Part shown: positions 22,370 to 54,141 of the stretch, piece after piece
Numbering within the stretch: the stretch's first letter is position 1
Layout of the letters: each line of letters begins with the position of its first letter
Source: Globomyces pollinis-pini
Taxonomy: Eukaryota > Chytridiomycota > Chytridiomycetes > Rhizophydiales > Globomycetaceae
Length of the DNA: 55,551 nucleotides
Direction: 5' to 3'
NCBI GenBank assembly: GCA_025399215.1
Contig: MU621193.1
Span: 1 to 55,551 of the forward strand
Position numbers and translations under genes: made by a program
The notes under the pieces: model-generated
The model's database searches: none
Told to the model about the DNA's origin: nothing
The model's input: only the letters and a program-made list of their open reading frames with translations

Positions 22370-23763
22370 TTATTGAACAACTGATAATAGAGCCCTATAA
22401 TCTTCTTCCACGGCATCAAAGGTATGCTGTAAAGCAGCCAAACGATCGCCAAATTCCATACCCATTAAGGCATCCTTATTTTTCTTATAAAGCCGTTTTT
22501 TAATGTAGATTCGATAATCTCTAAATGATTTCGCGTCCCATTTCAGAGTAGCCTTTAATAAAAGAATTTCGGAGCACCGTATGGCTTGGCGCTACAATGT
22601 TATTTATTTTTGAATACCTCACAAAGTTTGAATTTTTCTCTCAGGGCTTGTAAATGACCGACAGTCATTTGACTGGCAGTAACTCCAGCTAAGGCGTGGT
22701 TCTTAAGTAGCATTTGTATATCGCAACGGTCACGCATATCTTGGAATGCATCATTTGGATCTTCAACCGTTATGTCTACCACCTATGATAGATCAATATA
22801 GATTTGATTACTTGAGAATCGTTTAAAAATCTGTTATAAAGAAACTCATACATCCGATATCCATGACCTTTGCCCTGAAATGGTGGTAAAATTAGAACCT
22901 GACTATTGAAATCAATAAAAATGAGAGAAGGAGTACCTAATTCTCATTCGAAGTTTATCAGGGAAGTGATAGAAAGGGTAGTATGTTGCATATCCCACAA
23001 TAGTATACTGTTCAACTCCAATTGTTGATTTCCTGTAACTAAAATATAAATAGAATTAAAACGTACACCAATACACATTGCCAACGTTCATCATCATCTT
23101 CAATGAATGATGCTCCTTCAATAAACCATAATACAAACGTCTGTAATCTTCTATGATAGTCTTTAAAGCGTTTCATTTCAAAGTCACACTGATGTAGGTT
23201 AATAATACAAAATTGGTACTCGATAGTATTCATATGTTATGTTATTAATTTGGTATTCATGAATCTTTTCTCCCATTGGTTTAAATGACCGCTCGTCTTC
23301 CTTGACTTTGACCAGAAACTGATCATAGTTGAATGTAATTGCTAAGAAGACCATTAACTGATTTTTAAATACCTATCTAATTAGTCATTAAAGGTGCTAC
23401 GATGAGTTATTTTGGCAGTGATTTGCTTGATGACATCCTGAGGTAAAGTATTCCCAGACGATATTGCATTTGAGTAAGATATTCCTAAATAAGCGTTCAA
23501 AGAACCAGCAGAGTAATGAAGCTACTTTTAGTCGATGTATCTCTAACCTAATAATGAGATCTCTACCACAAACAGATACCTATATCAAGTTAAAAAGTGG
23601 ATAGAACCTTCAACTTCAAGTTCTTATACCCAAAGATCTTTTCCTCTTCCCCAAAGAAAGGATAAGAGAAATCAGGATGGAATTTGAGGGAAGAATGAGG
23701 GAGAACGAGAGCCAGCTCAATTGCCTCATTGGCATTGCAAACCCATTCCGCAAGTTGTTCCAT
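22370..23763 (-). CDS. HAT1: Histone acetyltransferase type B catalytic subunit
   Basis: Eight exons give 366 residues (yeast Hat1 is 374). The start MEQLAEWVCNANEAIELALV leads to YPFFGEEEKIFGYKNLKLK-LHYSAGSLNAYL, FKPMGEKIHEYQI, YHRRLQTFVLWFIEGASFIE-DDDERWQCVLVY, the acetyl-CoA loop RISQVLILPPFQGKGHG and VVDITVEDPNDAFQDMRDRC. Hat1 acetylates newly made histone H4 (K5/K12) before nuclear import, with Hat2. Two introns are exceptional: 23522-23607 (86 bp) splits into GT...AG units of 28, 32 and 26 bp, and 23342-23400 (59 bp) into 28 and 31 bp. The others are 26-34 bp. It is divergent from the disordered protein at 23924 across 160 bp. Confidence 0.95.
23342..23400 (-). other. Stacked double intron in HAT1 (28+31 bp)
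   Basis: Reading on the minus strand, GTAGCACC...AGATAG (28) is followed directly by GTATTTAA...CTTAG (31). The flanking exons join as ...KITHP|ITFNYDQF, which matches HAT1 spacing. Each half has intron ends and a typical length; neither half can be coding in frame. Confidence 0.8.
23522..23607 (-). other. Stacked triple intron in HAT1 (28+32+26 bp)
   Basis: Reading on the minus strand, three units GTTCTA...TATAG, GTATCT...ATTAG and GTTAGA...AGTAG abut exactly at AG|GT. Removing all 86 bp restores KNLKLK|LHYSAGSL, the expected HAT1 alignment with no extra residues. Confidence 0.78.
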
Positions 23764-23923
23764 TTGGAAAGAATTCGGACAAAACTATAACAGAAAACAA
23801 CAGGAACCTTGCTTGATTATAAATAGTATGACATGATTCAGTAATAACTAGAACTATCAGATCCTCTCCAGTTTACCTGATCAACCTGCGATAGAATTGT
23901 ATTCAACTGCCAAGAAATTTCAA

Positions 23924-24877
23924 ATGAACAGTTTAAAGTCATTCGTTGCAGATTGCAGAGTATCCAAGACTGTCCAATTACAGCCCAAAGCAGATTTACC
24001 AGTCGAATATCACTTCTGGACCAATCCCCATTTAAAAACCGCTCAATTAGTCGATGAACAATCCGTATTAAGCTACTCTGATTCAGATTCACCTCCTCAG
24101 ATGGATGGTTATGGCTACAATTCTCAATCATCTCAACCTTTCTTTTCATTTCAAAATCCAAATGTTTTGTCTCCAGATATGAATCAATCCTACCATTATT
24201 TATCTTCTAACCACAGTGATGACGATCGCTATTCTCAATATCACCCTGCAAGTAAAAACTCCAGCGAGCAGCAAATGAAAAGATCATATCCACCTTCCAA
24301 TCAAGTTTCTCCAACTTTCCCCATCAATGAACAGAATCCTCTTAATTATCTCTCTGGTACATATATCACCAATCAAATTCCATTAGCTAGTCAATCAAAA
24401 CTCTTCTTTAATGACTTTCAAATCAATGATGTTGATGACTATATTTCCGAACAAAGCACACATGATACCCAACAATCTTGTACAGTTAATGAAATACAAT
24501 CTCAATCTGATGAAAGTTCAATCTACAGTGATTACGCGTCAATTCAATCCCTTAGCAAACAGTCTCTGCAAACCAAATCTGCAAGACTACCTTTTCAATC
24601 TCCGATACTTGAATCCGCAAATTGGTCATATAATGTTCATGCAGATCATAGCCAAATGATTCCTCAACACCCAGATACTCTGAGCATTCGTCATCAAAGC
24701 CTGAATCAACTTAATCAAAATCATATTCATCATTCACCGCAAAGCGTTCCTGATCTATCGACCCTATTGATTCAAAGAGAAACCGAATATGATCAGCCAA
24801 TATCTCCTAGTCAAGCCCAATCATCAAGATCCAACTTTGTTGAAGATACCATAAGATTCATCAACGATGGTTTATAA
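23924..24877 (+). CDS. Low-complexity Ser/Gln/Asn-rich protein, unrecognised
   Basis: A single-exon frame of 317 residues begins at ATG 23924 (MNSLKSFVADCRVSKTVQLQ). After about 45 ordered-looking residues (including VEYHFWTNPHLKT) it is dominated by Ser, Gln, Asn, His, Pro and Tyr, with clusters such as SDSDSPP and SSNHSDDDRYSQY. Short conserved-looking peptides remain, and the C-terminus FVEDTIRFINDGL could be a short helix. No DNA-binding domain, signal peptide or membrane segment is visible. The composition suits a transcriptional cofactor, RNA granule protein or phosphorylation-regulated linker, but this is only compositional. It shares a 160-bp divergent promoter region with HAT1. Confidence 0.55.
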   Translation: MNSLKSFVADCRVSKTVQLQPKADLPVEYHFWTNPHLKTAQLVDEQSVLSYSDSDSPPQMDGYGYNSQSSQPFFSFQNPNVLSPDMNQSYHYLSSNHSDDDRYSQYHPASKNSSEQQMKRSYPPSNQVSPTFPINEQNPLNYLSGTYITNQIPLASQSKLFFNDFQINDVDDYISEQSTHDTQQSCTVNEIQSQSDESSIYSDYASIQSLSKQSLQTKSARLPFQSPILESANWSYNVHADHSQMIPQHPDTLSIRHQSLNQLNQNHIHHSPQSVPDLSTLLIQRETEYDQPISPSQAQSSRSNFVEDTIRFINDGL

Positions 24878-24959
24878 AAATACTCTTTTAAATAAATTAC
24901 TCATTGCATCATTAAAATAAGTTGAAACTGTATTGATATCCAAAAAAAAATGTTTATTG

Positions 24960-26990
24960 TTAAAGTTTTGCATTGACGTTTTTGGAAGCAAATTCACAAA
25001 TATGTTTGACATCTGCATAAACGCCTTGCAGGGTTTCAATGAACTTGGCCGAGCTTGTATCTGGGCAAGACACTTTGCTTTCAACCCCGATTTTCCTGCA
25101 AATTAAAATCATAAAAAGTTACATCATATCTGATTCAATGGTATAATTCATTCCATAGCCATCAGGGTAGACGGTACCGAACCCAGTTCCATAGACAGCT
25201 TTACCAGGGAAAAGTGCAGAGGTTGATAGTTGCCATTTAGATGATTTAGCAAAGACTGGATGTGTGAATATTTCGTGGCTTTCACCCTCCTTCAAGCATA
25301 ACTTCAAACCCAACAAATGCCTATCACATCCATACCCATTTGAGGCTATTTTTAGATATTCAACATGTGCCGTTGCTGCTTTTTGAAATAGTGCATACTT
25401 TTCCAGAGCCTAGAGTATTAGGTTGAAAATGCTACTGTAAAATTTGGATTGTCAAAAGCTTCCACGAAGGCTTGAGAAGCTGGAGTCAAAGATCGACAAG
25501 TTTCAGTTCTTCCGTGTAAATACTTTCTTGTTGAAGCAGTTTCGTAAACACCAGCACAGTAACCATGCAAGCGGTAAAAGGTTAATTGGATGCACAGTTG
25601 ATTGAATGCATCTGGACTCATTTTTGCTGTACATTAGAGAACCATATAAAATTACCAACTTTCTTGATGAAATTTGACCCGTATTTTGGGTAGTGCAGTA
25701 ATTTCATATCACTATCCGCAATGGTTTCATCAACAAAGCATTGTGCTTCAACAAATGCCTTTTTAATGTAATCATCGACCTCCCAAGAAACGCGCTTTAC
25801 AGCAGGTAATGATACAGTTTTTGCAGTATTGGCCGGATCTTGAGCAGGTTCTGATTCGGCCGCATTATTAATCATTAGTGCAGGAACTAGTGCGTCGCAA
25901 GGAGAATGCTCTCCATTTACACCAATTCGCCCATCATTGGTAACAATAACTGAAATAGCTTTATCAAACCATCTATTGTGCGCATTATATCCATGGAAAG
26001 TATTTTCTAAAAATAATTAAATAATGAAAGTTACTAGCTTGACTTGTCACATCATGAGGTACAATTTTATGATCCAAAGCAACCGCGAATAGGGCGGATT
26101 CAATTAATTTAAAAGATTCAGCATTTTTAGGATTTTTTAATAAATATCCATGATGTTCAGCCCATTTATCACGATGTTGGCCAGACAATAACCCAACGGG
26201 TGGTTGCAATGGAGTATTGGAATCTACTTGTCGAACCACATCCTTAAACTGCCTAAAAAGTAAATCAGCACCGATCAAATATACTTTTCGATTTCCTTCA
26301 TTGGTAACCTTTGACCTGTTTTGGGGTCATAAACGTAAACAATAAAAATTTGATCCTTTGCTAAAGCTATAATATGTTTCGCTTTAGAAGGAAAAGAATC
26401 CACCAGAATATCACATCCTGGTTTTGGAACTAGTACGCATTAAAAGATTCACTCATAATACCTCTGGTCACCCCAAAAATGTGTCTAAACTGATCCATAC
26501 AAATTGGCCCTTGTTTGGTAACTTCAGCAGGATAAGTTTGACTATACAAAAATCAGCAGTATTCAAATTACTCCTCAAGAGAATCTTTGTAGTTCAACAT
26601 ATTGCACACAAAACCAGCAGCCCTGAACAGTTGAAAATCGGTGAATCCTTCTTGGTAAGCAACCAAGTTTGGAGGAGCATTAACATGAGGTCGAACAATA
26701 ATAACCCAATTGGAATGAACCAAGACTGAGTTTCTCCATGTTAAATACGCATATTGTAACCACCATCGTTCCAACCAGGAGTTTGGTTGGGTTTTATCAT
26801 ACGCAATCAATCTATCTTGCAGTATTTGACCCAATCCGTTTGGTTTGATAAAATCATTGACAATATCAGTATATTGATCATGATCATGCTTGGATAGATG
26901 TGGTTTACAAGATTCCAAATAAGTTTTTGCAGTTACGTTTAACTCAGGAATCGGTAATCGTGGAAGCTTGGATTGATTTTGAAAAGTCAT
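24960..26990 (-). CDS. CAT2: Carnitine O-acetyltransferase, peroxisomal/mitochondrial
   Basis: Eight exons (introns of 27, 26, 29, 28, 32, 32 and 30 bp) give 608 residues. It begins MTFQNQSKLPRLPIPELNVT, a typical choline/carnitine acyltransferase start, followed by WLERWWLQYAYLTWRNSVLV, HIFGVTRVPKPGCD, GLLSGQHRDKWAE and the catalytic histidine in GRIGVNGEHSPCDA. Then come FNQLCIQLTFYRLHG, TASTRKYLHGRTETCRSLTP and VYPDGYGMNYTIESD. The protein ends NVNAKL, so the last three residues AKL form a peroxisomal targeting signal type 1. The enzyme moves acetyl units as acetyl-carnitine between peroxisome, cytosol and mitochondrion, which matters for growth on fatty acids or acetate. No clear mitochondrial presequence follows the chosen ATG. 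Confidence 0.95.
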
Positions 26991-27330
26991 TTGGAAATCG
27001 AAAATCAAATCAGTGGAGTAAAATCAGAAGCGGGTACATCACATGAGTGTCATCTGCGTAGTTGAGAACGTGAAATCGGATACTTTTGCACTATCAATTA
27101 CTGAATGAAATGAAAAAACTGAATACTGGAATAAAGATAGCACGTCATAATGTGTTTGGTATTAAAAATGGGCAGTTGCCATCTATTTGGAAAGAAAGAA
27201 CGACTAACACTCTGTTGAAAATTAACAAGAAATCCATTCACCAATGCCAATTAAAACCTTTTCAACTATGTACATGAATACGACTCATTGGAACAGCATT
27301 TCTAATATTGAATTTCAAATAATATATTTA

Positions 27331-29292
27331 TCATTTGGATCTACCACCATCCATTGTAATTCTTCCTCGAATCGATACCGGAACAACGTAGGAGCTTGTT
27401 CCAGCAATCACAGATGACCATTTCGCATAAAACAAAAGTGCTTGCCCAGTTTGTAACTCCATAATTTGTTTGTATCGTTCCGGTTCCATATGGATCTTCA
27501 TCTGCAAATACGTAAACCAGTCGTGCGCGATAAATCGATGAACCAAGCAGAGAGTGGAAAGATCAAGAATCTCTGCAGGTATTGATTTGGGGGATTGGGA
27601 GCTAACAACTATTCGAAGACCATGATGTCTCATTTGACGAACAGATGTAATAATGGATAAGGATAGTGGAGAGGTACTAGAGTCAAGGTATTTATGAGCT
27701 TCATCAAACACCGCCAGTTTTGGACCAGATGTGTTCAGAAACATAGCCAATAATACCTGGAAAATTCCATTGGCTTCTGTTGGTGACATCATTGGATCGG
27801 TTAAGTCAACAACTACTAATGATGGATCGCTAAATATTTTCTTTAAATCAGTCTTTGGAAAATGTTTGTTTTCGTTGGATTCTTGTAGCAGCGATTCTAG
27901 TAATGAAAGTCGAAGGTCCAAAGGGCTGGTTTGTTTATCAGTGAGTTTCATTTCAGCTTTGATCAAGTCTTTGAAACGTGCAAAATCGGGCATTTTACCC
28001 TGCTTTTGTAATCGTCGTAGCATTGTCAGGATTGAAGACATGTAAAGAGGAATGTTTTCACCAACATCAACACGCATAATAGCCTTGATTTGTGACGCAT
28101 TGAGCTCCTTCCATTTGAAAAGCAGTGGGTAGACAGTACAATTTGGGATACTGTCATAGTATGCCTTTCTTTGGATGTAGAATGATGGACTCACCAGGAC
28201 TGACATGTGCGACACGGGGGATATGCTATTGGGTATTCCAGGTCGTCGAGATGTCAATGTAACCGCTTCACACATATTGGCCAAATCCTGGTCATAATGG
28301 AACACAAGCGTGCTGGTAGGTTGTTGACGGTGAATGTGATTTGGAACACTAAGCATACAGTTCTCGATAATGGTAGCAACAGAATGGGATTTTCCAGCAC
28401 CCTGAACACCAACTGCCACTAAACAGAATGGTGCAGCAGTGTTCATATAAATTTTCTGGTTATCCTCTGTTTGTGCCAGAAAGCCATATTGTGAAATTTC
28501 TTTTGTTCGCTCTTCTGTGATTAAAGTTAAAGAATTTGCATCTGTAAAAGCTGTAAAAGGACGTGGTGACAGTAAGTCTTCAATTGACTGTGGTTTTGAT
28601 TCTACTTGATCATGGACGCAAAGCTTGGTCAAATCAAGAGATTCACAATTAACTTGCTTGTCCAATTTCGGTTGTGAATTACTCAAGTTGTTTGAAACAG
28701 TTGGTATAGTAGACTCTTTAGGTCTACCAAATAATGGTGCGCTAGATAGTTTGGGTTTGACGAATGCGGTAGTAGATTGTTTGCGTTTGACAAATAAGGT
28801 GGTGGATCGTGCATTAGATTGATTGGGTGTACCAAATCCAGTAGTAATTGGCGCAGTGGATTCCTTTGTTGTAGCAAATGCAGTAGTAATTGGTGCCGTA
28901 GACTCCTTAGGTGTACCAAACGAAGTAGTGATTGGTGTCGTAGATTCTTTGGGTGTACCAAATGTATTAGTAATTGGTGTCGTAGAATCCTTGGGTGTAC
29001 CAAATGTATTAGTAATTTGTGTCGTAGAATCCTTGGGTGTACCAAACGAAGTAGTGAATGGGGTGGTAGATGCTTCTGGTTTACCAAATGTAAAAGTAAA
29101 TTGAAATCGATCTTCCGTTTTTGATATCGAGTCGACTGGAATTTGCTGTAATTCAGGTTCGGTTTTCGTATGGTTGGTTTTTGCAGCATGAACTTTCCAA
29201 TCAGCGAAATGTATAAACTTTTCCTGGCATATTAAGCAAGAGTACTTTGGGTCATGAAATGATGGTAATGATAGTTCTGTTACTGTTACCAT
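27331..29292 (-). CDS. C2H2 finger + FG-like repeats + HerA/FtsK-like P-loop ATPase fusion
   Basis: An intronless frame of 653 residues. Residues 19-41 form a C2H2 finger (C19-x2-C22-x12-H35-x5-H41). Residues 69-166 hold seven 14-residue repeats with consensus FGTPKESTTPITTS, reminiscent of nucleoporin FG repeats, and further degenerate units to about 200. The ATPase begins near 270: Walker A GVQGAGKSHS (about 293-302), then a FHYD-containing strand, and Walker B AVFDEAHKYLD (about 527). SVRQMRHHGLRIVVSSQSPK follows, with sensor-like features of HerA/FtsK-type motors. I recall similar P-loop proteins as orphan expanded families in fungi but cannot name one. The nuclear-pore-like repeat and zinc finger suggest a nuclear role; this is inference. 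Confidence 0.65.
   Translation of the reverse strand: MVTVTELSLPSFHDPKYSCLICQEKFIHFADWKVHAAKTNHTKTEPELQQIPVDSISKTEDRFQFTFTFGKPEASTTPFTTSFGTPKDSTTQITNTFGTPKDSTTPITNTFGTPKESTTPITTSFGTPKESTAPITTAFATTKESTAPITTGFGTPNQSNARSTTLFVKRKQSTTAFVKPKLSSAPLFGRPKESTIPTVSNNLSNSQPKLDKQVNCESLDLTKLCVHDQVESKPQSIEDLLSPRPFTAFTDANSLTLITEERTKEISQYGFLAQTEDNQKIYMNTAAPFCLVAVGVQGAGKSHSVATIIENCMLSVPNHIHRQQPTSTLVFHYDQDLANMCEAVTLTSRRPGIPNSISPVSHMSVLVSPSFYIQRKAYYDSIPNCTVYPLLFKWKELNASQIKAIMRVDVGENIPLYMSSILTMLRRLQKQGKMPDFARFKDLIKAEMKLTDKQTSPLDLRLSLLESLLQESNENKHFPKTDLKKIFSDPSLVVVDLTDPMMSPTEANGIFQVLLAMFLNTSGPKLAVFDEAHKYLDSSTSPLSLSIITSVRQMRHHGLRIVVSSQSPKSIPAEILDLSTLCLVHRFIAHDWFTYLQMKIHMEPERYKQIMELQTGQALLFYAKWSSVIAGTSSYVVPVSIRGRITMDGGRSK
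28795..29088 (-). repeat. 42-bp coding minisatellite (seven units) encoding FG-like repeats
   Basis: Seven near-identical 42-bp units, for example GGTGTACCAAATGTATTAGT onwards on the plus strand, encode 14-residue FGTPK(D/E)ST(T/A)PIT repeats. The central units are most alike and the flanking ones are diverged, as expected for slippage-driven growth. Confidence 0.9.
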
Positions 29293-29640
29293 CTTAAAGG
29301 AAACAAAAAATAGTGAAGATGTTCGGACTATTTTTACACCAAACGGGTTGCTTTTGGATATTTGTTTCTAATCCTACAATGCTTTTGGATCCAATCCTGT
29401 CCATAGTTAATACCAATAAAAGAAATATAATCAATATTTTTCATTAGATAAAGATGCCTATGATTAACTGCAAGGTCAGTTTATATTGGAACCAAACCAA
29501 TCATCCCATAAAATGTCACACTGTACACATTTAATCTCTCATAACTTCACTTGTAAGAAAAGTTTCATGTCTAATGAAAGACCCAAATGATTGGAATGTG
29601 GCAATTCAACTTGTCCACCTCAACATAAAAAAGCTTATTT
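29293..29640. promoter_or_regulatory. 348-bp divergent intergenic region
   Basis: It separates the minus-strand ATPase gene from the plus-strand F-box/ankyrin gene and presumably contains both promoters. AT-rich, no repeat or RNA gene recognised. Confidence 0.4.
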
Positions 29641-30825
29641 ATGTTCGCTGATATTCCCAATACAATAACCAACCTACCACAGGACATCATACTCGAAATT
29701 ACGAGCCATTTGAATCTCGTAGACTACCAGGCTCTTAGACTCTCAACTGCTCTTTGGAGTTTACCATTTATACATACATGTACTTGGGAGAGTTATACAA
29801 ATACGATTCCAAACTTACCAACTGATGCATTGATTTCACCTAAATTGATGTTCAAACCATATTATAATATCCTAAATCAAAGTCGATTGGTTTCCATATT
29901 CAATTTCAATCATCAATCCTTAATGATGCATTTAATTACTCGCAAACTTATCCCTACCACCATGCATTCACAGTTACTTAAAATTGTATGTTCATTAGGG
30001 TCCCAATCGGTTATGACGAAAATACTGTTGGATTGGGATGTGGATGTACATCAATCAAATAACTTGTTTTTGTTTTTACTTGCAAGTAAAGGGCATGTAG
30101 AGTGTTTGAAGACATTATTACAAATGCGAGATGTTGAACCAAATGTATCGGAAAATTTGGCAATTGGGATTGCAGCTTGTAATGGACATTTGAATTGTGT
30201 AGAGTTTTTGTTGAAGGATGCTCGTGTGAACCCTGCCGATCAAGGAAATAGGGCGATAAAGTTAGCGGCTGAAAATGGATTTACCAATATTGTTGATGTA
30301 TTGTTGAAGGATATTCGCGTAGATCCATCAATGGATGATAATTACGCAGTTCGATTAGCAGCTGCTAATGGACATACAGAATGTTTACAGCGGTTAATGC
30401 TCGATCCAAGAGTAGACCCAAGTGATCATCAAAATTGGGCTATTGGTTTAGCAGCAAGTAACGGCCACGCAGAGTGTATTCGGATGCTTTTGTCTGATTC
30501 AAGGGTAAATCCTAGTGATGATTCTAATTTGGCCATACGGTCTGCTTGCGAATACGGCCATTTAGAATGTGTGAAACTACTTATATTGGATGCTAGAGTT
30601 GATCCCAGCGAAGGATTAAACTTTAGTATTCGAATTGCTTCTGAAAATGGGTATTTAGAAATCATTCGAGTATTGTTGGCTGATCCTAGAGTAGATCCCA
30701 GTGACGATTCAGATTATGCATTAAGACATGCATCATCCAACAAACATTATGATTGCGTACAACTGTTATTATCCGATTCTCGTGTTGGGTTGAATTTTCA
30801 GAATTTCAATCCTCGAATCTGTTGA
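29641..30825 (+). CDS. F-box plus ankyrin-repeat protein (second of three)
   Basis: An intronless frame of 394 residues. The F-box spans roughly residues 11-50 (ITNLPQDIILEITSHLNLVD, then YQALRLST). From about residue 135 there are seven to eight ankyrin-type repeats of 33 residues with consensus D-x-RVDPSDDxNxAIRxAAxNGHxECVxxLL, strikingly uniform towards the C-terminus. A role as SCF substrate adaptor is inferred from the domains. The repeat wording matches the genes at 6757 and 35597. Repeats of this RVDPS type are, from memory, common in amoebae, giant viruses and some early-diverging fungi, so horizontal spread is possible but not shown here. Codon use is like the neighbours. Confidence 0.8.
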   Translation: MFADIPNTITNLPQDIILEITSHLNLVDYQALRLSTALWSLPFIHTCTWESYTNTIPNLPTDALISPKLMFKPYYNILNQSRLVSIFNFNHQSLMMHLITRKLIPTTMHSQLLKIVCSLGSQSVMTKILLDWDVDVHQSNNLFLFLLASKGHVECLKTLLQMRDVEPNVSENLAIGIAACNGHLNCVEFLLKDARVNPADQGNRAIKLAAENGFTNIVDVLLKDIRVDPSMDDNYAVRLAAANGHTECLQRLMLDPRVDPSDHQNWAIGLAASNGHAECIRMLLSDSRVNPSDDSNLAIRSACEYGHLECVKLLILDARVDPSEGLNFSIRIASENGYLEIIRVLLADPRVDPSDDSDYALRHASSNKHYDCVQLLLSDSRVGLNFQNFNPRIC

Positions 30826-31036
30826 TTCGCTCTCTACCGATATATTTTCATACTTCAATCATCTAATCTAATAAAAATTATGACATATCAATTCGTAACT
30901 TATTTAACGTGTAACATCATTTTAGAAATCAGCATCATGGCCAGTTGTGATGGAACAAGGTCAATATCTCTCCACTAGAATGTTTGATATAATTATACTA
31001 TAACACTATTTAGTAGCAATACAACATTTATTATCA

Positions 31037-32689: not shown

Positions 32690-32923
32690 TAAATTAAAAA
32701 GTTACTGAATAATGGACAAGCTTTATTTTTTTTTCCATATCGGACAACTGAACTCCGATTTTTGAAAGTTTGTACCATGGATTCAACGCAACACAAGTAA
32801 CAAAATGCTGTACGGGAATTATGGAATTATCACCGTTATTCATTCAAAACACATAATGCACGGCATTGTTTTTAGAAGATAATATTTATTCGTACAAATT
32901 CAATGTTCTCGGAGAGGAAATAA

Positions 32924-33891: not shown

Positions 33892-34397
33892 TACTATTTG
33901 AAGGAGAGAAAAATCAAAAAAAAAGAGATAGAAATAGGAAGTGGCAAGACAGATGAGAATCTGTGGGACCTTGTGTATTACATAAGACGAAGCATAAAAA
34001 AAATCGAAAACACGAACGATAAAATGTATGTGGGGTGAAGGAAAAGTGTTTGATTTTTTATTAGTGGTAGGTAGTAGTAGCGTATTATCAAGGGTGTATT
34101 AAAATTGGTACCATGAACATGTGAGCATCTCAGTGGAGTATTTAATTGAGATGAACAACTTGATCGTACTAAACTACATAGTTGTTACCATTCATTATAA
34201 GAATATAAAAAATTCCTACTAACTACTAATAATTATTATACTAAAGAATTCATTCATTACTCTAACATTAAGTAATAGTACGTACAAATCCACAGTCATA
34301 ATAAAACTACTTGGTAATGACTTCACACTCATAATATTGAACTCCTTTCTTTTCATTACCATCACTTGACCTTCGTACTACTTTTTCCCCACTTCAA
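33892..34397. promoter_or_regulatory. 506-bp divergent promoter region between PDX1 and HIBADH
   Basis: A purine-rich stretch on the plus strand (about 33895-33960) lies next to the PDX1 start, giving a pyrimidine tract on its sense strand as often seen before highly expressed fungal genes. The rest is very AT-rich. A 60-codon frame in the purine tract is low complexity and not counted as a gene. Confidence 0.45.
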
Positions 34398-35596: not shown

Positions 35597-36565
35597 TTAG
35601 GGTTTCAAATGTTCCAATAAGATGGAATGACATTCTTTGTGGTTGTTGCTCTTGGTAATAGAAAGTGCATATCGAATAGCAGGCTGAATATCTACTCTTG
35701 GATGATCCAATAATACTGTTAGACAGTCTACATAGCCATGGCTAGCTGCACATCGAATCCCAATCCCTTTCAATACGTTAGGATTGACTTTCGGATCATT
35801 AAGCAACAACTTCAAAACCTCTGCATTACCTTGACAAGCTGCCAACCGAAACGCGAAATTGTTTTGATCCGAAGCATTCACCTTTGAATGTTTCATCAAC
35901 AATCGTATACATTTGGAATATCCAAATGAGCATGTCAGCATAAAGACCTGATTTTGATTCAATGATGGGTTTAATCTTTCATCCAATAGCAGCACCTTCA
36001 AACTTTCATGATAATTCAAGGTACACACTAATTGTAGACAAATGTCGTTGTATACATTAGGATTCACCCGATTATCCTTCAACAACATGGATACCATTTC
36101 AGATTGATTCAATTTACATGCCAATAGGAATGGAAAGTTATTATTATATCCTACATCAAGTTTTGGATTACCCAACACTAATTGAAATAGCTTCACATGT
36201 CCAACTTTAATACAATGCACAAAAATTTGAAGTAACGTATGTGATTTGATACGATTCATTAATTTGCCATCAAGTAATGAGTTGTAGGCAAGGTTGATTT
36301 GGAAATGTGAAGTCAGCATTGTTAATAACCGACTATCATTAAGGTATTGTGGGTTGATTTGTACATGTGTTGATAAATCGTTCAAGGGGTTAATGAATGT
36401 GTAGTGTGGTTGGCATTGTGCATCTAAGCTCTGGGTATACGCTTCCCAAGTTAAACGCGATTTGGTTGGTAAATGTATATGACAGGAAGACATTCGAAAA
36501 TTGAGATATTCTCTTGCATTTAGATGACTTGATATCATATAATTGAGCTCGTTTGGTAATATCAT
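35597..36565 (-). CDS. F-box plus ankyrin-repeat protein (third of three)
   Basis: An intronless frame of 322 residues starts at ATG 36565 with MILPNELNYMISSHLNAREY, an F-box. The frame is open upstream for 27 codons but without another ATG. Ankyrin-type repeats follow from about residue 110, more degenerate than in the gene at 29641: LLLNDPKVNPNVLKGIGIRC and MLLKDNRVNPNVYNDICLQL show the same RV(N/D)PN signature. The middle part between F-box and repeats aligns by eye with the second family member (WEAYTQSL versus WESYTNTI), indicating common descent of the whole gene. Likely SCF adaptor by domain logic; target unknown. Confidence 0.72.
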   Translation of the reverse strand: MILPNELNYMISSHLNAREYLNFRMSSCHIHLPTKSRLTWEAYTQSLDAQCQPHYTFINPLNDLSTHVQINPQYLNDSRLLTMLTSHFQINLAYNSLLDGKLMNRIKSHTLLQIFVHCIKVGHVKLFQLVLGNPKLDVGYNNNFPFLLACKLNQSEMVSMLLKDNRVNPNVYNDICLQLVCTLNYHESLKVLLLDERLNPSLNQNQVFMLTCSFGYSKCIRLLMKHSKVNASDQNNFAFRLAACQGNAEVLKLLLNDPKVNPNVLKGIGIRCAASHGYVDCLTVLLDHPRVDIQPAIRYALSITKSNNHKECHSILLEHLKP

Positions 36566-40684: not shown

Positions 40685-40741
40685 AATAACATTGATTGAA
40701 TTTCTCTATTAACAGTATATTAATCTTAAATAAAGGTAGAT

Positions 40742-41815: not shown

Positions 41816-43318
<1,503 letters not shown>

Positions 43319-43449
43319 CAATCAAAAAAAACTCTGATTAACATCCACCCTTATCTCAAAAGAGCCATCAGAACTCAATTCACTTGAAAATTTGCATGCG
43401 TTGAATCATGGTTTTTATGCATACAAGCATAGCCAGTTGTCAGTCATTT

Positions 43450-44803: not shown

Positions 44804-44884
44804 TACGAATTGAATTGAATTCAATGTTTTTTTTCTTTTTTTTTTAGATACAATTTTTCATATTTATACTTGAATTCATTAGCA

Positions 44885-47454
44885 ATGGTAAAAACAAAGA
44901 AGACAAAAAATCAGAAACCAGGAAAACAGATTACCTTGGACATTGAGGATCCAGCTTCTTTCAGGCATTTGAATTTGTCTGAAAATACTTTGTCTGGTCT
45001 AAATATGGCAAATTTTGTAAAAATGACAGACATTCAAAAGCATTCACTGCCACTAGCATTAGGTTGAACATTCTTTTTTTTTAATTGTGTAGCTGGAAAG
45101 GATATCTTGGGAGCTGCTAAAACAGGTTCTGGAAAAACTTTAGCCTTTCTTATTCCTGTTTTGGAGAAACTTCATAAAGAAAATTGGTCAGACTTCGATG
45201 GTTTGGGTGCATTAGTCATTTCTCCTACCAGAGAATTAGCATTACAAATATTTGAAGTTCTTCGGATTATTGGAAAGAAACATTCATTTTCAGCTGGTAT
45301 CCTAATTGGAGGAAAAGATTTAAAACAGGAACAGGTATTATGATTTAAATCTAAAGAGACAGGAGCGTGTTGGGAGGATGAATATCTTGATTTGTACACC
45401 TGGTCGACTGTTACAGCATATGGATCAAAGTCCAGAGTTTAATTGTGACAGTCTTCAAATATTGGTCTTAGATGAAGCCGATAGAATCCTGGATATAGGA
45501 TTTGAAAAAGCTTTGAATGCAATCTTAGAAAACTTACCCAAAAAACGACAGACTTTATTATTTTCTGCCACACAAACAAAGGCTGTTCGTGACCTTTCAA
45601 GATTAAGTGTGAAGGTATTTCTATAATAGATGAACGGTTAGGACCCTGAATATATATCAGTTCATGAAGCAGCCGATAACAGCACCCCAAAGAATCTAGA
45701 ACAAACTTATATTGTTTGCCCACTGCCAATGAAGCTAGATATACTCTTTTCTTTTATCAAATCACATTTAAAACAAAAAATTCTCGTGTTCATGTCCAGT
45801 TGTAAACAAGTCAGATTTGTTTTTGAAAGTTTCTGTAAAATGCAGCCTGGTGTTCCACTTCTATGTCTCCATGGGAAACAAAGTCAAATGAAACGTAAAT
45901 TGGATTTTTAACGAGTGTTTAGGAATGGCTATATTCAACCAATTTTCTCGAAAGACTGCAGGATGTCTTTTTGCAACGGATGTTGCCGCAAGGTAATCTT
46001 TAAATATTTAATTACCAGAGGCTTGGATATTCCAGCTGTTGATTGGGTTATTCAACTAGATTGCCCAGATGACACTGCTACTTATATCCATAGAGTTGGT
46101 AGAACTGCCAGATATGACGCTTCAGGAAATGCTCTATTAATACTTTTGCCTTCTGAAAAAGAGGCAATGCTTAAAGAGTTGGAATTGAAGAAAGTTCCCA
46201 TCAAAGAAATTAAAGTAAACCCATCAAAAACTACGTCTGTTAAAGGCCAACTGGCCGCCATTTGCTCCCAAAGTCCTGAAATGAAATATTTGGCTCAAAA
46301 GGTAGTCTTCAAACTGTACTCATTAGACTAGGCATTTATTTGTTATCTACGATCTATTTATTTGCAGTCTAATAAGGAAGTGTTTGACGTGCATGCTTTA
46401 CCTGCGGAAGAATTCGCAGAAGCGTTGGGCCTCCCAGGAGCTCCTTCGATTAAATTCAAAGTATATTCAACATTTTTAACCTTAGAAACTTGGTTCAGCA
46501 AAGAATACTTCGAGACAGCTGGCGAATATTGATAACAAAGAAATTAAAGCACCAATTTCTTTAAAGAAAAAAGCAATGGAGCTTGCTAAGCGAACAGAGT
46601 CGGATGATGAAACAGAGAAAACGAAGGATAAGAAACCGAAAACTCGACTTGACAAATTGTTTGCACAAACCAACAAAACTGTTTTATCTACACATTATAA
46701 TCTTTTGAAGGACGCAGAAGGGGATGGAGATGAGGAAGATTCATTACTTACCTTGGCTCGAAAAGATCATGAAATATCAGACGATGAACTGATTTTGAAC
46801 AAAAAAACCAAGAAAAAGCTATCAAAAATAAAGAGAGCAATGGATGAGGCGGGCATCGGTAAAAAGATGCACTTTGATGAAGAGGGGAATGCAGTTGATG
46901 TATACAAAGTTCAATCACTTGAGGACTTTGAAAAGGAAGACGTGAAAGAAAAGCAACAAAAACATTTGGAAACTGCTGCTAGCTTGATGAAAGAGGCTGA
47001 TTTATTAGATAAAGAAACTGCCAGAGAGCGATTGCGGGAGCTAAAGCGAGCTAGAAAGAATAAAGAAAAGGCAATTCGTCGAGAGGAGGTTTGATAACAT
47101 ATTAGTTAATAATTTTAGAGTGGACCAGTTACTGATGTTTCCATTGGTCCAAATGATGATGAAGGCTCAAATGAAGAATTTGAAAATGATTCAAACATTT
47201 CCTATAATTCTGATGCAAATTCATTCCATTCTGATGCCGCATTAAGCTATGGCTCAGATGACAACATCTCTGAGGAAAACATATTGGATGAAGGTTCCGA
47301 TTTTGATATATTAGACGAAGATATTCAATCAGCACCATCCGCTCGCAAACGAAAACAACACACACAATCCGATAAAATCGACAAGAAACAGAAGCTGCTT
47401 TCCAATATGAATACGGATGAATTACAAGAGTTGGCTTTAAAATTGTTGCAATAA
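44885..47454 (+). CDS. DBP4: ATP-dependent RNA helicase Dbp4 (DDX10)
   Basis: Nine exons (introns of 30, 28, 27, 28, 26, 66, 25 and 30 bp) give 769 residues (yeast Dbp4 is 770). DEAD-box motifs in order: [12 protein letters not shown] (Q motif), AAKTGSGKT (I), PTRELALQ (Ia), CTPGRLLQH (Ib), [10 protein letters not shown] (II), FSATQT (III), [11 protein letters not shown] (IV), [22 protein letters not shown] (V) and [11 protein letters not shown] (VI). A DUF4217-like region follows, then Lys/Glu coiled coil and an acidic Ser/Asp tail ending [11 protein letters not shown]. Dbp4 acts in the nucleolus on early 18S rRNA processing and release of U14. The 66-bp intron (46302-46367) may be a stack of a 30-bp GT...AG unit and a 36-bp GC...AG unit. 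Confidence 0.95.
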
Positions 47455-47585
47455 ACATTTAACGTAATGGGAGTATATTATTTATTTAGTTGTTCACAGT
47501 CAGTTGAATGATGGCATATAAAGTATGCATACTATAAATACTAAGGTAATGAACCATAGTTTAGAATTTTCCCGAATTTTTTTCT

Positions 47586-47990
47586 ATGGTCATCTTGAAT
47601 GGAGGATGCCATTGCACCAATATTCAATTTCAGGTTCAATTCGAAGGACGTGAAATAATTGCCTGGGATTGTAACTGCTCAATATGTTTAATGAAGAAAA
47701 ACACACACTGCATCATACCATCAAAAGATTTTAAGTTAAAAGATCCTGAAATACCTTTGACAAAGTATACATTTAATACTCACACCGCACAGCATTGGTT
47801 CTGTCCCAAGTGCGGAGTGCAGGCATTTTACGTTCCAAGAAGTAATCCAGATGGGTTTGCTGTGACTATTGCATGTATCAAAGAGGATGACCTTAAAAAC
47901 TCCAATATTATTATCAAAGTTCAAAAATTTGATGGTAAAAATTGGGATCAAGAATTCGCTGAAAGTAATATAAGTCAGCTTTCAAAATAA
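47586..47990 (+). CDS. GFA/CENP-V-like zinc protein
   Basis: An intronless frame of 134 residues with the cysteine pattern of the glutathione-dependent formaldehyde-activating (GFA) family: GGCHCTNIQFQVQF, WDCNCSICLMKK and FCPKCGVQAFYVPRSNPDGF. These Cys residues bind two zinc ions in known structures. The size and sequence are near animal CENP-V and many uncharacterised fungal GFA proteins. The family name is historical; few members have a proven reaction, so a carbon-sulfur lyase or chromatin role should not be assumed. No targeting signal is visible. It is 131 bp downstream of DBP4 and convergent with the exonuclease gene that follows. Confidence 0.85.
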   Translation: MVILNGGCHCTNIQFQVQFEGREIIAWDCNCSICLMKKNTHCIIPSKDFKLKDPEIPLTKYTFNTHTAQHWFCPKCGVQAFYVPRSNPDGFAVTIACIKEDDLKNSNIIIKVQKFDGKNWDQEFAESNISQLSK

Positions 47991-48031
47991 AATGAAACTA
48001 AAATGAACTTAAACGTGTATTTACACCTAAA

Positions 48032-51000
48032 TCATTCTGATATATTAGAAGTAGTATCTCCAAGCTTGTCTAAAAATGGTGGTACAGCATAAAGTTTGAA
48101 AGTTGGTGGACTACGTTCAATATCAGTAGTTATCAAAACTTGAACAGAATCAAACAAACCAATAATTTGCGTGTGACTGATAACATGTTCTAAAGGATCG
48201 GATACATTATCTTCTTCGCCGTTTTTGATTGAAGGAGGTTGTATTGCGTCTGGTACTTCAACACTTGCTGGAACCTTCCAATGAATGACTAACTCACAAT
48301 TTTCCATTCTAGATTCAATACCAATAACTTCCCCTCGATCAATTGAGTCTTCAATCCAGACTCTAGTTTCAATTCCAAACCTAGGAACTAATACATCAAA
48401 TGCTCGTGACTCTATTCCATTAATATACGCTTTGGCATAGATTCCCTCATCAGCACATTGCATCTGAAGGCCATGTAAATAAGTACATAGGTACAAGTTT
48501 TGAGATGCATCTTGAGCATCCTTTGCTGCATTTTTTCTATTGTTACATTGCTTCGCAATTTCATCGACTCTTTCTGATGTAAATACCTCAGGTTTGTCTG
48601 CTAAACAAGCTTCCAACATCTGATGTACAACCAAGTCACAGTATCGTCGAATGGGAGACCTACTATTTAATTTTCGTTTCGTTACGTGAAATGAGTATAG
48701 AGTGGGATGCTTAACGCATAGTGACCAAAAGAAGATATATCAACTGATCCTGTGCAAAAATAATCCGCTCTCCGCATACTCTTGATGCACATCAATCTTA
48801 CCAATGATTGCTTTAAAGGATCAGATATCTTATTTAAACTGTTATTTAAAGTCAAAGCTGATGTGGTATCAAGAGTTATTTTCTTTTTTTCCAGTTCCTT
48901 TGCCAATTCATTCAATGATCGCATTAATGGAGGGGTATGTCGTCGCAACAGAGACGATTCTGGATAATACGACACTATTTTTTCTGCCACGGTCCTGTTA
49001 GCCAATAGCATATACTATGTTTAATTCGCATGCTGTTACCTCTTCAATCAGTTTGTTAGATTCCTTCAGCAAGTATACCCCCGAATCCACTGGCAGACCC
49101 GTATCGTCACAATCAAACCATAGCTTGATGGAATTGAGTGTCAGAGATCCATTCTTATATCGATTCTCCCGTAAAACTTTGCTGAACTTATACAGTTGCT
49201 GAATATCTCCCCTGATTTGATCAATTGTCCATGAGCCATAGAGTTCTACATTTTCAGTTTCATCCCAATCTCTTCCTTCTATCACAGCTTGTGCATTATC
49301 ATAAGACAACTTTGCACAAGAATTAATTACGGTTCGTTGGAATGTAGGTTCGCCAACGATGTTACCTTCTGAGTCGAAAATCCAGAAAACAGAGAAGGCC
49401 AGTCGATCCACACCACCATTCAAACTGCAAAGCTCTTCACAGAGTAGTCTAGGTAACATAGGAATAACTTTCTGAACTAGGTAAACCGATGTTGCCCGAT
49501 TGAATGCCTCATCATCAACTTTTGTTCCATTACGAACAAAATAGGATACATCAGCAATGTGAACACCAATCTCAAACGTACCATCTCCAAGGTCGATGCA
49601 TGATAAAGCATCATCCAAATCACGTGCAGTTGGGGGATCAATGGAGAAAACACGATGCAGACGCATATCGCGACGATTAGCGAATTCAGATTCGGGAATA
49701 CTCCAAGGCTTGCAATTAGATTAAATGGACTTACTGTGGGAACCAAAGAATCAACCACTTCATCCGAAAAGAATTCCCATGTGATTCCTGACGACACCAA
49801 TAGGGCTTCTGATTCAGTCGTTAGGTGTCCCATCTTTCCCAAAACATTAACGAACTCACCTATGGGGAAGATACTGTCGGCCCTCCAATTCGTGATTTTT
49901 GCTGTAACTAAAGTTCCATCGAATGAATCTGGGTCATTGAGGAAATTTCCAGGAACGAGTGACTTTGAAAGTAATATAAATGGGACTCGTTTGTCGCTCT
50001 ACGGTTAATCAAATATTTTACAGGTTTGAACCAAACGAATTTCGAATTTGATCCAGTGCCATTGTTTTGAACTTCACTGGTTGGCTTCTCTACACTCAAT
50101 TCCCCAACAAACGTTCGCTCTCGCATAGAACTTTCCAATATAAAAACAATGGTACCAAATACTCTAGTTTCTTCAAACTCTACATGTTAACCTTTTAGTT
50201 TTACCTTCAACCTCAACTTCATCAATCGTAAGATTACACTTGTTTTGTCTTTTTTGATTTTCCAAAGATTTGGTCATCTTTTTTTCTTTCTGGAGATTTT
50301 TCTCCTGTTCTAAATCATCACCTGTTAACAACTCCACCAATACGATGTCTCCATCAAGCGCTCGATTCATGTGTTTCATGCCCGAAATAAAAATATCGTC
50401 ATCTTCCCCTTCAGATCTGACATAACCATCATTTCTATTCGCTTTACTTATTCTCAAAGTGCCTTGAAGAATCGTTTTATCTTCCAACCCATTATCTTTC
50501 TCTTCTTCAGATATGTACCTTACCATTAAATATCTTCAACTTACTCTTTGTAAAAATTCTTCTTTTTCTTTGAAGGTGTATTCCTAGGACTCTCCCACAA
50601 CTTTTTGGTCTTGGGTGTGGGGTTTTGCAAACCATTACCAGAACTTTTTCCGATATTTGTTGCAGCCGCTTTATTTCTTGGAGTTCTTAATACCTCATTT
50701 TGTTTTGAAGGTTTGTTGGTCTTGTTTTCGGGATTGATTTCTAACTGTGATGTTTGGTTCTTTAAGAAAGTCACTATATCAAAATCTCGTATAAAGCAAT
50801 CTTCTAAAACATCAAGTTTAAATTTGACTCCAGGGAATAGGTTTGAATCGTTGCTGGATGAGCCATTCCCTTCTTCAAATGAATCCGCAAAGATTTTTTG
50901 AGGTACGAAGTTCTTGCTGATGTGAGGAATGTTTGTGGATTTCGACCTGCATCTAGATAAACCACATAGTAGCACTTACGAAGATGCAATATCATGCGAG

Positions 51001-51314
51001 AATGTACATTCATTTCTACTGCATGATCCATAGTTTTTAAAATAGTTACAGATGTTGTTCTTCACTTTTGTTTTACCATTTTTCTTGGGTCTTTGACTTG
51101 AATTTCCTGATCTATTATTGTTGGGTTTAATATTTCCATTGGACTTTGTTTCTGATTGATGTGACATAGCACATTCAATACCTTTACGACAGCTTCCTTG
51201 TTGATAAAAAGGACAAACTTTTCGAATAGGTGGGGGATTGATAACCGGTTCACTGTGCTGATCACTTATTAGGAAATCCTCAAAGTTTAATTCTTTAACG
51301 TTGCTCGATTCCAT
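48032..51314 (-). CDS. DIS3L2: DIS3L2-like 3'-5' exoribonuclease with N-terminal CCCH zinc fingers
   Basis: Eight exons (introns of 27, 26, 25, 23, 26, 25 and 26 bp) give 1034 residues. Two CCCH fingers open the protein: CPFYQQGSCRKGIECAMSH (about 34-52) and CNYFKNYGSCSRNECTFSH (about 90-108). A basic disordered linker follows, then the cold-shock region YISEEEKDNGLEDKTILQGT-LRISKANRNDGYV, as in Dis3L2. The RNB domain has the active-site aspartates in SIDPPTARDLDDALS (about 515-529), HIADVSYFVRNGTKVDDEA, YTHFTSPIRRYCDLV and a C-terminal S1-like region. There is no PIN domain, which separates it from Dis3. The catalytic Asp residues are intact, unlike fungal Ssd1. Dis3L2 degrades uridylated RNAs in the cytoplasm; the fingers are not part of the family I know. 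Confidence 0.9.
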
Positions 51315-51385
51315 TGAATAGGTAAAAAATTTTGAACGAAAAAATCAGGTAAATGCAACTATCTGACTCATCCTAAACATAATAG

Positions 51386-53301
51386 TCACTTTAAATTTTT
51401 TTTATTAAAGTAGTCCTCAATGCTGCCACGAATGCTAGACTTTGGTTTCCTTTTCTTGGTAACTGGTACACGGTTTGTAGTTGGTTTCCTTTTGGGTATG
51501 TTTTTAGATGGCGAAGACAGACTTATCGCAAAGTGTAAATCGCTATGTTCAGCCTTTTGGGTATGGTCAATTATTACATTGCATTCAGGACATCTATATG
51601 CGAATGGTGTGCCATTCTCATCAACCATATCTAACAGCACATCAAATCCGCTATCAATCTGCTGAGGCTCGCTCTTTTTATCAATAAGCAATTTTGACGA
51701 ACACAATGCAGGATTGGAATCCTGCAAACAGATGGTGTTGTGCTCAGTACTTGACTCTACCAACCACTTTGATAGTGACAAGTTTGATCGCTTTTCAAAT
51801 CCAGAAATTGTCAAAGATATCAGAGTCATTGAAGCCATGTTGAATTCATTTTTAGCGAGCTGTAACGCTTTGTCAAGCACAACCGTAAAGTCTTTAAGAT
51901 CGTCTTTGTGTGGAAACGGACATGATTGGGTTCGAAGTGAAGGGTTTCGGATTGCAAGCTATTGTTTATAAATACTGATCAATACCGTTAAGAGTTTGGG
52001 CCATCGAGAGGTCTCACCATATTCACCTAAACTTCTGGAATATATTTCATTGGATAAAACTCCGAGCCATTTTCGAATACTATCAACTTCAGTGACAGGG
52101 GTATTGAATGTCTTTATGGAGGCTATAGACTTACAATTCTTTGATTGAATGACTTTGTCTGAACACACGCCCCTACAAATGTTGTACAACCAATCACCGA
52201 CATCTTCCCCAAGCTTATTCTGAATTTCTTTCTTGGAAAAGCTCCTTGACAATAAATTAGTAAAAGAGTACCATAAATCGGATGCCTTTTCTACTTCAAA
52301 GAATTCTTCTATCTTCTCCCCAAATTTTCCGCCTAAACCCTTTATTTTGGACATTGCTATAGTACGCATGAAACCTTCCACCTATATTTAGATTTGAAAA
52401 AATACTTCTTTATCTCTGAGTACAGTCTGAAAAGTAGTCGTTAGTAAATGATAATACCTGCTTGTTTGGTTTGTTTAAAGATGAAACTAGTTTGCTGAGC
52501 GTTTTATTGTGAGCAATCCCAGTACTGCAAGTATATCCCAATTGATTCCATATAGAATTTCGAATTGTCTGGCTTATTTTACAAGCATAAAGTAGCTGTA
52601 AATCTGCAAAACCACTGGACACCTCCACATCATCACCAACCATATATCCATAATCTTTCCAATACACCTGCGGCTCTTGAAGAGGATCAAATTTGTCATT
52701 CAAAAGCATTCTGTTGATATCTTCAGTTACATCTATATACACCTCATCAACAGAAGCTTTTTGATAATTTGGATACAGGCTTTGGATAATCTACAGCATT
52801 AGTATCATTAACTTATTAAAATAAATATATAAATCCAAAAAGAATTGGTAATACCTTCATTATTTTTAATGATGCATCTCTACACGGTTAAAATGAGAAA
52901 TGTTGACCGATAAGTGTGCAATGACGCTTTCAAGTTGTCCTTCTGTAGCCGCCCTGTTCTATACTTTGGAATAGGATCATCAGGAGAATAAGTGGGAACA
53001 TGTACTAAAACTAAATCTGGACATAACTCTTTCGCTTCTTGAACAGTAGTTGATCTTGTTATTCCAAATTTCCGAGCTGAATAAGACACTGCTAATATCC
53101 CTTCAATTATTTGAGTAAGACAATAGAGTACCTATTTAAGTTAGTGAATGTGATGAGTACCATTCCACTGTTGAACACATATTGGTGTATCAAGGGACAA
53201 ATTTAATCTAACTCTTTCCACTTGAGCATAAAATGCATCCTTTACATCAGAAGTATCAATGTATTTACTAAATCCAGATGTATAATTGCACGGGAATTCA
53301 T
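51386..53301 (-). CDS. RAD30: Translesion DNA polymerase eta
   Basis: Eight exons (introns of 29, 60, 28, 64, 31, 24 and 27 bp) give 550 residues. It begins MNSRAIIHLDLDAFYAQVER, the Y-family motif with the first catalytic Asp, then QWNGILAVSYSARKFGITRS, CPDLVLVHVPTYSPDDPIPK, YQKASVDEVYIDVTED (catalytic D-E), CSTGIAHNKTLSKLVSSLNK-PNKQTVL and VEGFMRTIAMSKIKGLGGKF. Near the C-terminus is a UBZ ubiquitin-binding finger (RCPECNVIIDHTQKAEHSDL-H), and the end SIEDYFNKKNLK resembles a PCNA-binding PIP box. It bypasses UV dimers. The 60-bp intron (53101-53160) is a 29+31 stack at AG|GT; the 64-bp one is not. The start codons of RAD30 and MTQ2 are 45 bp apart. Confidence 0.95.
53101..53160 (-). other. 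Stacked double intron in RAD30 (29+31 bp)
   Basis: On the minus strand GTACTCATC...TAAATAG (29) abuts GTACTCTAT...TTGAAG (31). Both units share the first six bases GTACTC. Removing both joins QWNG|ILAVSYSARK with the right frame and alignment; removing only the first leads to a stop codon within ten codons. Confidence 0.85.
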
Positions 53302-53346
53302 GTTGGAAACAAAAAATAAAATTGTTTCCAAATTCAATTCAATCCA
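53302..53346. promoter_or_regulatory. 45-bp bidirectional start region between RAD30 and MTQ2
   Basis: Only 45 bp separate the two divergent start codons. It contains AATTGTTTCC-like AT-rich sequence and no room for separate promoters, so initiation elements must be shared or lie within the coding regions. Confidence 0.7.
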
Positions 53347-54141
53347 ATGGAATTTTCAACTCCAAACTTGAAGCACATTCAGAAAAGTGATTTTGAAAAT
53401 GTTTATGAACCTGCAGGTTGGTCCAATGGCTATTAAACTTAGGTTCGTTTTTGTAAGTGTTAACATTAGAGGATACTTTTCTTTTTTTAGATACATTGGA
53501 GCAAGAATACTCGAAATTAATCACAGATAATCCTTTGATATGTTTGGAGATTGGGTAAATTTATTACTAATACTTATTTAAGCTCTGGCTCCGGCTGTGT
53601 CATTACATTTTTGGCAACCATCTTGGGACCATCCCGCTGTGAGACTTAAAACTGACTAAATTTAGTATATTTAGCTGTAGATATAAACCCCCAAGCTTGT
53701 GACATCAGTTTCAGGACCGGAAGTCAAAATAATGTCTCTGTCGATTTGGTGAACACAAACTTCACTGATGGACTAAATAAGAGATTACATGGTACTATTG
53801 ATGTTTTATGTTTCAATCCACCATACGTTGTAACTCCAACTGAGGAAATTGGTTCAAAATCAATTGAAGCATCGTGGGCTGGCGGAATTGATGGTCGTGA
53901 AGTAATTGATAGGTTTTTACCATTGGTAGATGTACAGTAGATGATATGATAACATGTTCAGGAACTTCTATCACCTAACGGGGTGTTTTATATGGTTGTA
54001 ATTAATGAGAACAAGCCGGAGGAGATAATGGAATATATGGCTGACAAGTTTGGTTTTTTTTCAAGAAGTTTAATGTATCGACGAGCTGGTTGGGAGGGAT
54101 TAAGTGTTCTTGGGTTCAGTAGAGTAGAAGGTCGAATGTAA
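53347..54141 (+). CDS. MTQ2: eRF1 glutamine N5-methyltransferase (HemK2 family)
   Basis: Five exons (introns of 53, 28, 36 and 30 bp) give 215 residues, matching human HEMK2 (214). MEFSTPNLKHIQKSDFENVY-EPAEDTFLFLDTLEQEY is the family N-terminus. CLEIGSGSGCVITFLATILG is the SAM-binding glycine loop, SVDINPQACDIS the acidic loop, VLCFNPPYVVTPTEEI the NPPY catalytic motif, and AGGIDGREVIDRFLPLVDEL-LSPNGVFYMVV the core. With Trm112 it methylates the Gln of the GGQ motif in release factor eRF1. The first intron (53417-53469) consists of GT...AG units of 26 and 27 bp joined at AG|GT. Confidence 0.95.
53417..53469 (+). other. Stacked double intron in MTQ2 (26+27 bp)
   Basis: GTTGGTCC...AAACTTAG (53417-53442) is followed immediately by GTTCGTTT...AACATTAG (53443-53469). 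Exons join as VYEPA|EDTFLFLDTLE, the invariant MTQ2 sequence, only if both are removed. Confidence 0.87.

Follow-up and report, generated by a model that had tools for sequence, protein, structure and literature searches.

The genome of the chytrid Globomyces pollinis-pini (Chytridiomycota, Rhizophydiales; assembly GCA_025399215.1, 18.55 Mb in 459 contigs) carries very short introns that directly abut one another, the AG acceptor of one being followed at once by the GT donor of the next. We studied these stacks in a window of 55,551 nt, the whole of contig MU621193.1 (C104; C and L numbers are our labels for contigs and loci), in a curated sample of 305 kb (the window and 250 kb outside it) and across the full assembly. 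We consider it likely that the stacks are trains of 2 to 10 complete mini-introns with exons of zero length between them, that each unit is removed separately, and that the trains grow by duplication of whole units.

A preliminary description of the window had listed four stacks, and all four were recovered as described: two in HAT1 (23522-23607, 28+32+26 nt, and 23342-23400, 28+31 nt), one in RAD30 (53101-53160) and one in MTQ2 (53417-53469). Its tally of long introns, nine of 105 above 36 bp, has to be corrected, as our recount gives 104 intron sites with six above 36 nt, one of these six being mis-parsed around a real intron of 64 nt. The public protein P0001 equals our HAT1 model with the stacks of 86 and 59 nt removed whole (100% identity over 100%), and alignments to solved homologues in the PDB run without a gap through both HAT1 stacks and the MTQ2 stack. 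Homology checks of this kind are needed because a coding stretch of HAT1 (22875-22936, encoding VLILPPFQ) starts with GT, ends with CAG and mimics an intron; it misled our first gene model.

Stacking at AG|GT lies far above chance, genome-wide, and the counts that settle the question are independent of gene models. We counted pairs of the word TAGGTA at different spacings across the assembly, with the reversed-word pair as a control. The TAGGTA pair occurred 379 times around a unit of 23 to 36 nt, compared to 36 times at 9 to 22 nt and 29 times at 37 to 50 nt, while the control hardly moved with spacing (270, 277, and 223, respectively). Two consecutive intron-sized units gave 229 matches against 14 at the wrong spacing, several of the 14 being double-spaced hits within trains; the reversed-word controls for this pattern gave 79 and 87, the reversed words being commoner overall and indifferent to spacing. 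The preliminary description had called for such a search for tandem units, holding that the idea should fall if no excess appeared and RNA data showed only single-step lariats, and an excess of TAGGTA pairs was found at 23 to 36 nt only.

Gene models led to the same excess. In a first pass, the gene finder was run with a flat prior on intron length (15 to 120 nt); it merged genes and mis-parsed HAT1, and even under this prior intron lengths formed a sharp peak at 24 to 34 nt. Ordinary introns measure 28.3 ± 2.7 nt (mean and standard deviation of 753 single introns). Among the introns of 46 to 68 nt called in this pass, 11 of 44 divide into two GT..AG units of 20 to 38 nt, where dinucleotide shuffles expect 1.96 and ten control junctions gave 0 to 5 each, in line with the earlier claim that AG|GT splits exceed chance; the 11 include at least one false call, whose second "unit" is the HAT1 coding stretch just mentioned. 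The flat prior was later replaced by a peaked one and then by explicit chains that allow micro-exons of 0 to 12 nt, every length being equally penalised and the exonic splice-site context neutralised. Micro-exons of 0, 1, 2, and so on up to 12 nt then occurred 25, 1, 0, 0, 0, 2, 0, 1, 3, 2, 1, 2, and 2 times, i.e., 25 of zero length against 14 of all other lengths together, and 14, 1, 0, 0, 0, 1, 0, 0, 0, 2, 0, 1, and 2 times under a harsher penalty. These counts were made with a loose pruning limit, a tight one having given just four zero-length exons and hidden the longer trains.

The curated sample holds 13 trains with 20 junctions: nine trains of two units, two of three, one of four and one of five. 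Each unit is 24 to 36 nt long, begins with a GT donor, ends with an AG acceptor and in most cases contains a motif resembling a branch point. Nine of the curated trains lie in the 250 kb outside the window, a density that scales to roughly 670 trains in the genome (95% interval, about 305 to 1270). At 12 loci picked by pattern, mostly from match clusters among about 100 places with the two-unit pattern, a train was found in every case (10, 6, 7, 7, 6, 5, 7, 4, 5, 3, 7, and 6 units), and loci chosen from isolated matches had trains of 2 to 8 units in seven of eight cases, the eighth giving no gene model. Computed alignments pass without a gap through nine trains in total: in addition to the three in HAT1 and MTQ2, these are in genes for a CLK kinase (5 units), Ubc8 (7), an E2 G1-like enzyme (5), a SAMHD1-like protein (5), PHYHD1 (10 units, 285 nt) and MSH2 (2). 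Whole trains span 53 to 285 nt. For the remaining trains, the fit to orthologues was judged by eye.

Five stacks of the sample were dropped. Two were judged coding by comparison with known proteins: a unit at C1:33772 translates to LYSTDIPPY of a FAM72-like protein, and one at C2:97393 to KKGSNWFSL of a GH47-like mannosidase. The other three (C2:76677, C10:28456, and C1:14789) were set aside as uncertain. Stack units lie closer to the gene start than single introns do: in the 305 kb, 58% of 43 units against 36% of 694 single introns fall within the first 30% of the coding sequence, the units of one train not being independent and the 43 including the dropped stacks. A roughly 40-nt repeat at C1:21671-21919 (minus strand; L007), with the sequence AAAGATATGATGATAGAAGGTAT and variants of it, opens the CLK kinase model; it is possibly coding, possibly an intron-like minisatellite.

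We compared the splice signals of internal train units with those of single introns. The two are alike in length (28.9 and 28.3 nt) and AT content, and their log-odds scores nearly coincide, at 3.76 and 3.75 for donors and 4.01 and 4.07 for acceptors, compared to 1.08 and 0.62 for the donors and acceptors of pseudo-introns in coding sequence. The branch-like motifs TTAAC, CTAAC, CTAAT, and TTGAT are enriched in single introns, where the presumed branch A mostly lies 6 to 8 nt upstream of the final G. A broad set of such motifs matched 0.79 of internal units and 0.74 of single introns, and a narrow set matched 0.62 and 0.69. The first AG at least 20 nt from the donor is the true acceptor in 88% of single introns and 91% of train units. 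A search for U1 small nuclear RNA with RF00003 was without match in this genome and likewise in every control genome. In the window and the sampled contigs, retention would introduce an in-frame stop for 87% (174/201) of the single introns with a length divisible by three, against 58% and 62% in the two remaining length classes. Selection linked to nonsense-mediated decay could account for this excess; stop-free introns of such lengths also escape the gene finder.

Because the units keep full signals and a normal length even though neighbours are near random in similarity, we favour their separate removal. Furthermore, AG|GT is kept at the 20 curated junctions despite this divergence, when most of these sites should have decayed in a neutral repeat inside a single long intron. 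Under separate removal, each unit would be recognised alone, over about 28 nt, and spliced out in its own reaction by recursive or serial splicing. Once an upstream unit is out, the exon would meet the next GT, so that a donor would be regenerated. Any order of removal is chemically possible, and stepping from 5' to 3' is a guess. Whole units would be gained or lost by tandem duplication or loss, to which the protein would be blind because every unit is spliced away. The ratchet-like stepwise removal put forward in the preliminary description thus finds what it requires, namely, stacking beyond chance and units with the donor and acceptor signals of single introns; the stepwise course itself, as opposed to one jump, its order, and the route of duplication, at the DNA or the RNA level, are what we infer from the sequence.

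Several points weigh against separate removal. First-unit donors are somewhat weaker than those of single introns (3.1 versus 3.75 log-odds), with GTA in 0.68 of 25 compared to 0.88 of 753. The scores of the units were partly selected by the gene finder itself, as were the junction words of the pattern-picked loci by the search pattern, and curation by inspection removed five of the 18 stacks, and with them five of the 25 zero-length junctions (two stacks clearly coding, three uncertain). Junction survival is partly a matter of definition, since broken trains would count as long introns; the ceiling on these is set by 12 unsplit calls of at least 39 nt in the 305 kb. At the RAD30 stack, human polymerase eta is 2 residues longer at the site itself and 3 more slightly upstream, so that this alignment is not gap-free; homology here appears consistent with removal of the stack, less cleanly than in HAT1 and MTQ2, and is not decisive. 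Finally, longer introns exist that do not divide. Five are without AG|GT, in RAD30 (64 nt), in gamma-tubulin (L048; 69 nt) and at C2:70548 (76 nt), C10:31173 (80 nt), and C10:34070 (111 nt), and the sole split of a sixth, at C10:21638 (106 nt), is 74+32. The protein looks continuous across all six (RAD30 by alignment, the others by eye). The spliceosome of this fungus is thus able to take out longer introns in one go, and the earlier suggestion that stepwise removal is obligatory, introns being defined only over about 30 bp, finds no support in that form.

The alternative that survives best overlaps with separate removal. Routes might compete, with units taken out one by one, in groups or in a single jump, and some might be kept as exons in some transcripts; as a general account we hold this for possible but rather unlikely. 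In principle a GT is free to pair with every AG downstream of it, and the public PHYHD1 model P0121 (L030:785-1069, on C12) keeps units 4 and 8 of the train as coding, the other units being removed in groups. However, the resulting in-frame insert of 19 residues is missing from three aligned relatives and may be just an annotation error; P0121 reflects either a pipeline unaware of trains or a rare isoform.

We regard it as quite improbable that a train is simply one ordinary long intron, excised in a single step from its first GT to its last AG, the internal AG|GT being idle remains of duplicated introns or repeats. The unsplit introns of 64 to 111 nt speak for this reading, certain trains are indeed near-identical repeats, and the public HAT1 and CLK models excise the whole stretch, although such models cannot separate one step from many. 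On the other hand, internal units retain the donor, acceptor, and length of single introns although identity between neighbours has mostly fallen to near random, and the spacing peak is restricted to normal intron size. The two classes also differ in their internal AGs. The six long introns, which were chosen by eye, have 3 AGs at least 20 nt from the donor, where their base composition predicts 8.8 (P = 0.025), whereas in the 13 sample trains, each taken as a single intron, there are 39 against 28.1 expected. The scarcity of AG in long introns is in line with a choice of the first suitable AG, and a single jump across a train would need to disregard AGs that ordinary introns mostly respect. 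Lastly, a "first unit" can be a coding exon that starts with GT and ends with AG by chance, as at C1:33772, C2:97393, and the HAT1 stretch; this artefact is true for at least 2 of the 18 sampled stacks and is refuted for the class, where it is extremely improbable given the gap-free alignments across nine trains, the trains of 5 to 10 units, which cannot arise in this way, and a spacing excess that is independent of gene models.

Returning to trains of separately removed units, we examined their origin by comparing units with one another. Across 25 trains, neighbouring units were highly similar (similarity above 0.5) in 8 of 81 pairs, compared to none of 5742 pairs sampled between trains; among non-neighbouring units of one train, about 5% of 153 pairs were. 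Because some trains hold near-identical neighbours, it appears that trains can lengthen through copying of whole units. The clearest copies are in the C12 train (C12:42085-42369), with two identical 28-nt units among its ten, and in the C68 train (C68:15877-16038), where near-identical units of fixed length follow head to tail (C12:42111-42252 and C68:15928-16038). In the 13 sample trains, neighbours are barely more alike than chance (20 pairs, p = 0.037), their identity being 0.66 against 0.63 for unrelated introns, and most trains therefore look old or of other origin.

One intron might become two by slippage or unequal exchange at the AG..AG or AGGT repeats of its two splice sites, or by re-insertion of an excised intron. 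An AG|GT exon junction was found in 3 of 25 trains and 20 of 752 single introns (p = 0.034), and a direct repeat of at least 4 nt in 4 of 25 and 52 of 752 (p = 0.10), which are weak signs of microhomology as the route of the first duplication. The earlier proposal that introns insert or duplicate at an existing junction is borne out in part, in that some trains plainly hold whole units copied in tandem; the first step from single to double may have taken such a route. An AG|GT junction is a good donor context and a site where a spliced intron could reverse in. On the boldest view, the trains are intron birth in action: excised mini-introns would reverse into their own AG|GT junction, multiply on the spot and so form arrays that are spliced serially, with the spliceosome, and not only DNA slippage, as their maker. 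We consider this unlikely, if worth stating.

A train of six units at L031:573-740 (C68) directly follows the start codon of a FabG-like gene. A 9-nt direct repeat, GGTAAAAGA, borders this train on both sides and takes in its first donor, as if this donor had derived from duplicated exon sequence. On C17 (92244-102221), protein kinase matches point to about four consecutive genes of the same strand; such a tandem family might help to date intron gains. Two single-exon genes of the window, at 29641-30825 and 35597-36565, look F-box-like and ankyrin-repeat-like by eye. The chitin synthase family has 33 strong matches in the genome (best E value, 8e-242), as fits a fungus. The features of the window are collected in Table 1.

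Table 1. Stacked introns of the window and an unsplit long intron, in window positions
Feature	Position	Strand	Basis
HAT1 gene (histone acetyltransferase type B), two stacks	22370..23763	-	gene model, public protein P0001, PDB alignment
HAT1 first stack, unit 1, 28 nt	23580..23607	-	gene model
HAT1 first stack, unit 2, 32 nt	23548..23579	-	gene model
HAT1 first stack, unit 3, 26 nt	23522..23547	-	gene model
HAT1 second stack, unit 1, 28 nt	23373..23400	-	gene model
HAT1 second stack, unit 2, 31 nt	23342..23372	-	gene model
RAD30 (DNA polymerase eta) stack, unit 1, 29 nt	53132..53160	-	gene model, alignment
RAD30 stack, unit 2, 31 nt	53101..53131	-	gene model, alignment
MTQ2 (N6AMT1-like) stack, unit 1, 26 nt	53417..53442	+	gene model, gap-free alignment
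MTQ2 stack, unit 2, 27 nt	53443..53469	+	gene model, gap-free alignment
RAD30 64-nt intron without AG|GT, counter-example to obligatory stacking	52791..52854	-	gene model, alignment

Several known systems resemble the trains in part. Stwintrons of Ascomycota are, in the portions of the reports available to us, two nested U2 introns at one position, for which consecutive excision is reported (PMC12403724, PMC7138796); the internal intron splits an element of the external intron, be it donor, branch or acceptor (PMC12403724), and in the [D1,2] type the constituents share a G. The trains have in common with them the presence of several introns at one position in a fungus and the idea of consecutive excision, which is what holds of the likeness to stwintrons drawn in the preliminary description. 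The anatomy differs, as complete introns of about 28 nt, up to ten instead of two, abut at AG|GT without nesting, and both introns are intact at every AG|GT junction. Nesting of the [D1,2] type was also considered for the 64-nt RAD30 intron and was rejected by reasoning, since the reading frame would shift.

At ratchet points, an acceptor is juxtaposed to a donor so that removal of the upstream segment regenerates a 5' splice site (PMC8605326). The trains share with those of Drosophila and vertebrates the AG|GT with a zero-nucleotide exon, zero-length exons being found 25 times in our chains against 0 to 3 times for any other length. Several ratchet points can occur in one intron. Unlike these segments of long animal introns, the units of a train are 24 to 36 nt long, in trains of 53 to 285 nt, look like full introns by themselves and in certain trains have been copied in tandem.

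Introners also involve the copying of whole introns (PMC9860276). They disperse to many genes, whereas train copies adjoin their source and different trains are unlike, as the absence of similar pairs between trains illustrates. With minisatellites, trains share near-identical units of fixed length set head to tail, but here the repeat unit is a whole GT..AG intron, and in most trains the units have diverged.

A search of one open-access library for tandem, contiguous or arrayed introns and for short introns of chytrids and aphelids found nothing of this kind, and the portion seen of one paper that mentions Globomyces and introns (PMC13391722) is not on Globomyces introns. Stwintrons and ratchet-point splicing are thus the nearest kinds, and the parts of their descriptions available to us contain no trains of complete mini-introns. 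The trains would amount to recursive splicing miniaturised and multiplied, together with tandem duplication of whole introns, their novelty being gauged against that one library.

Intron gain and the minimum size of spliceosomal introns are long-standing questions. Gene models can mishandle train sites, as in PHYHD1, where P0121 leaves two units as coding. The trains offer a natural series of 2 to 10 units that allows tests of stepwise splicing, of pairing by intron definition and of the choice of the first AG, and their near-identical neighbours catch the duplication of whole introns close to its occurrence.

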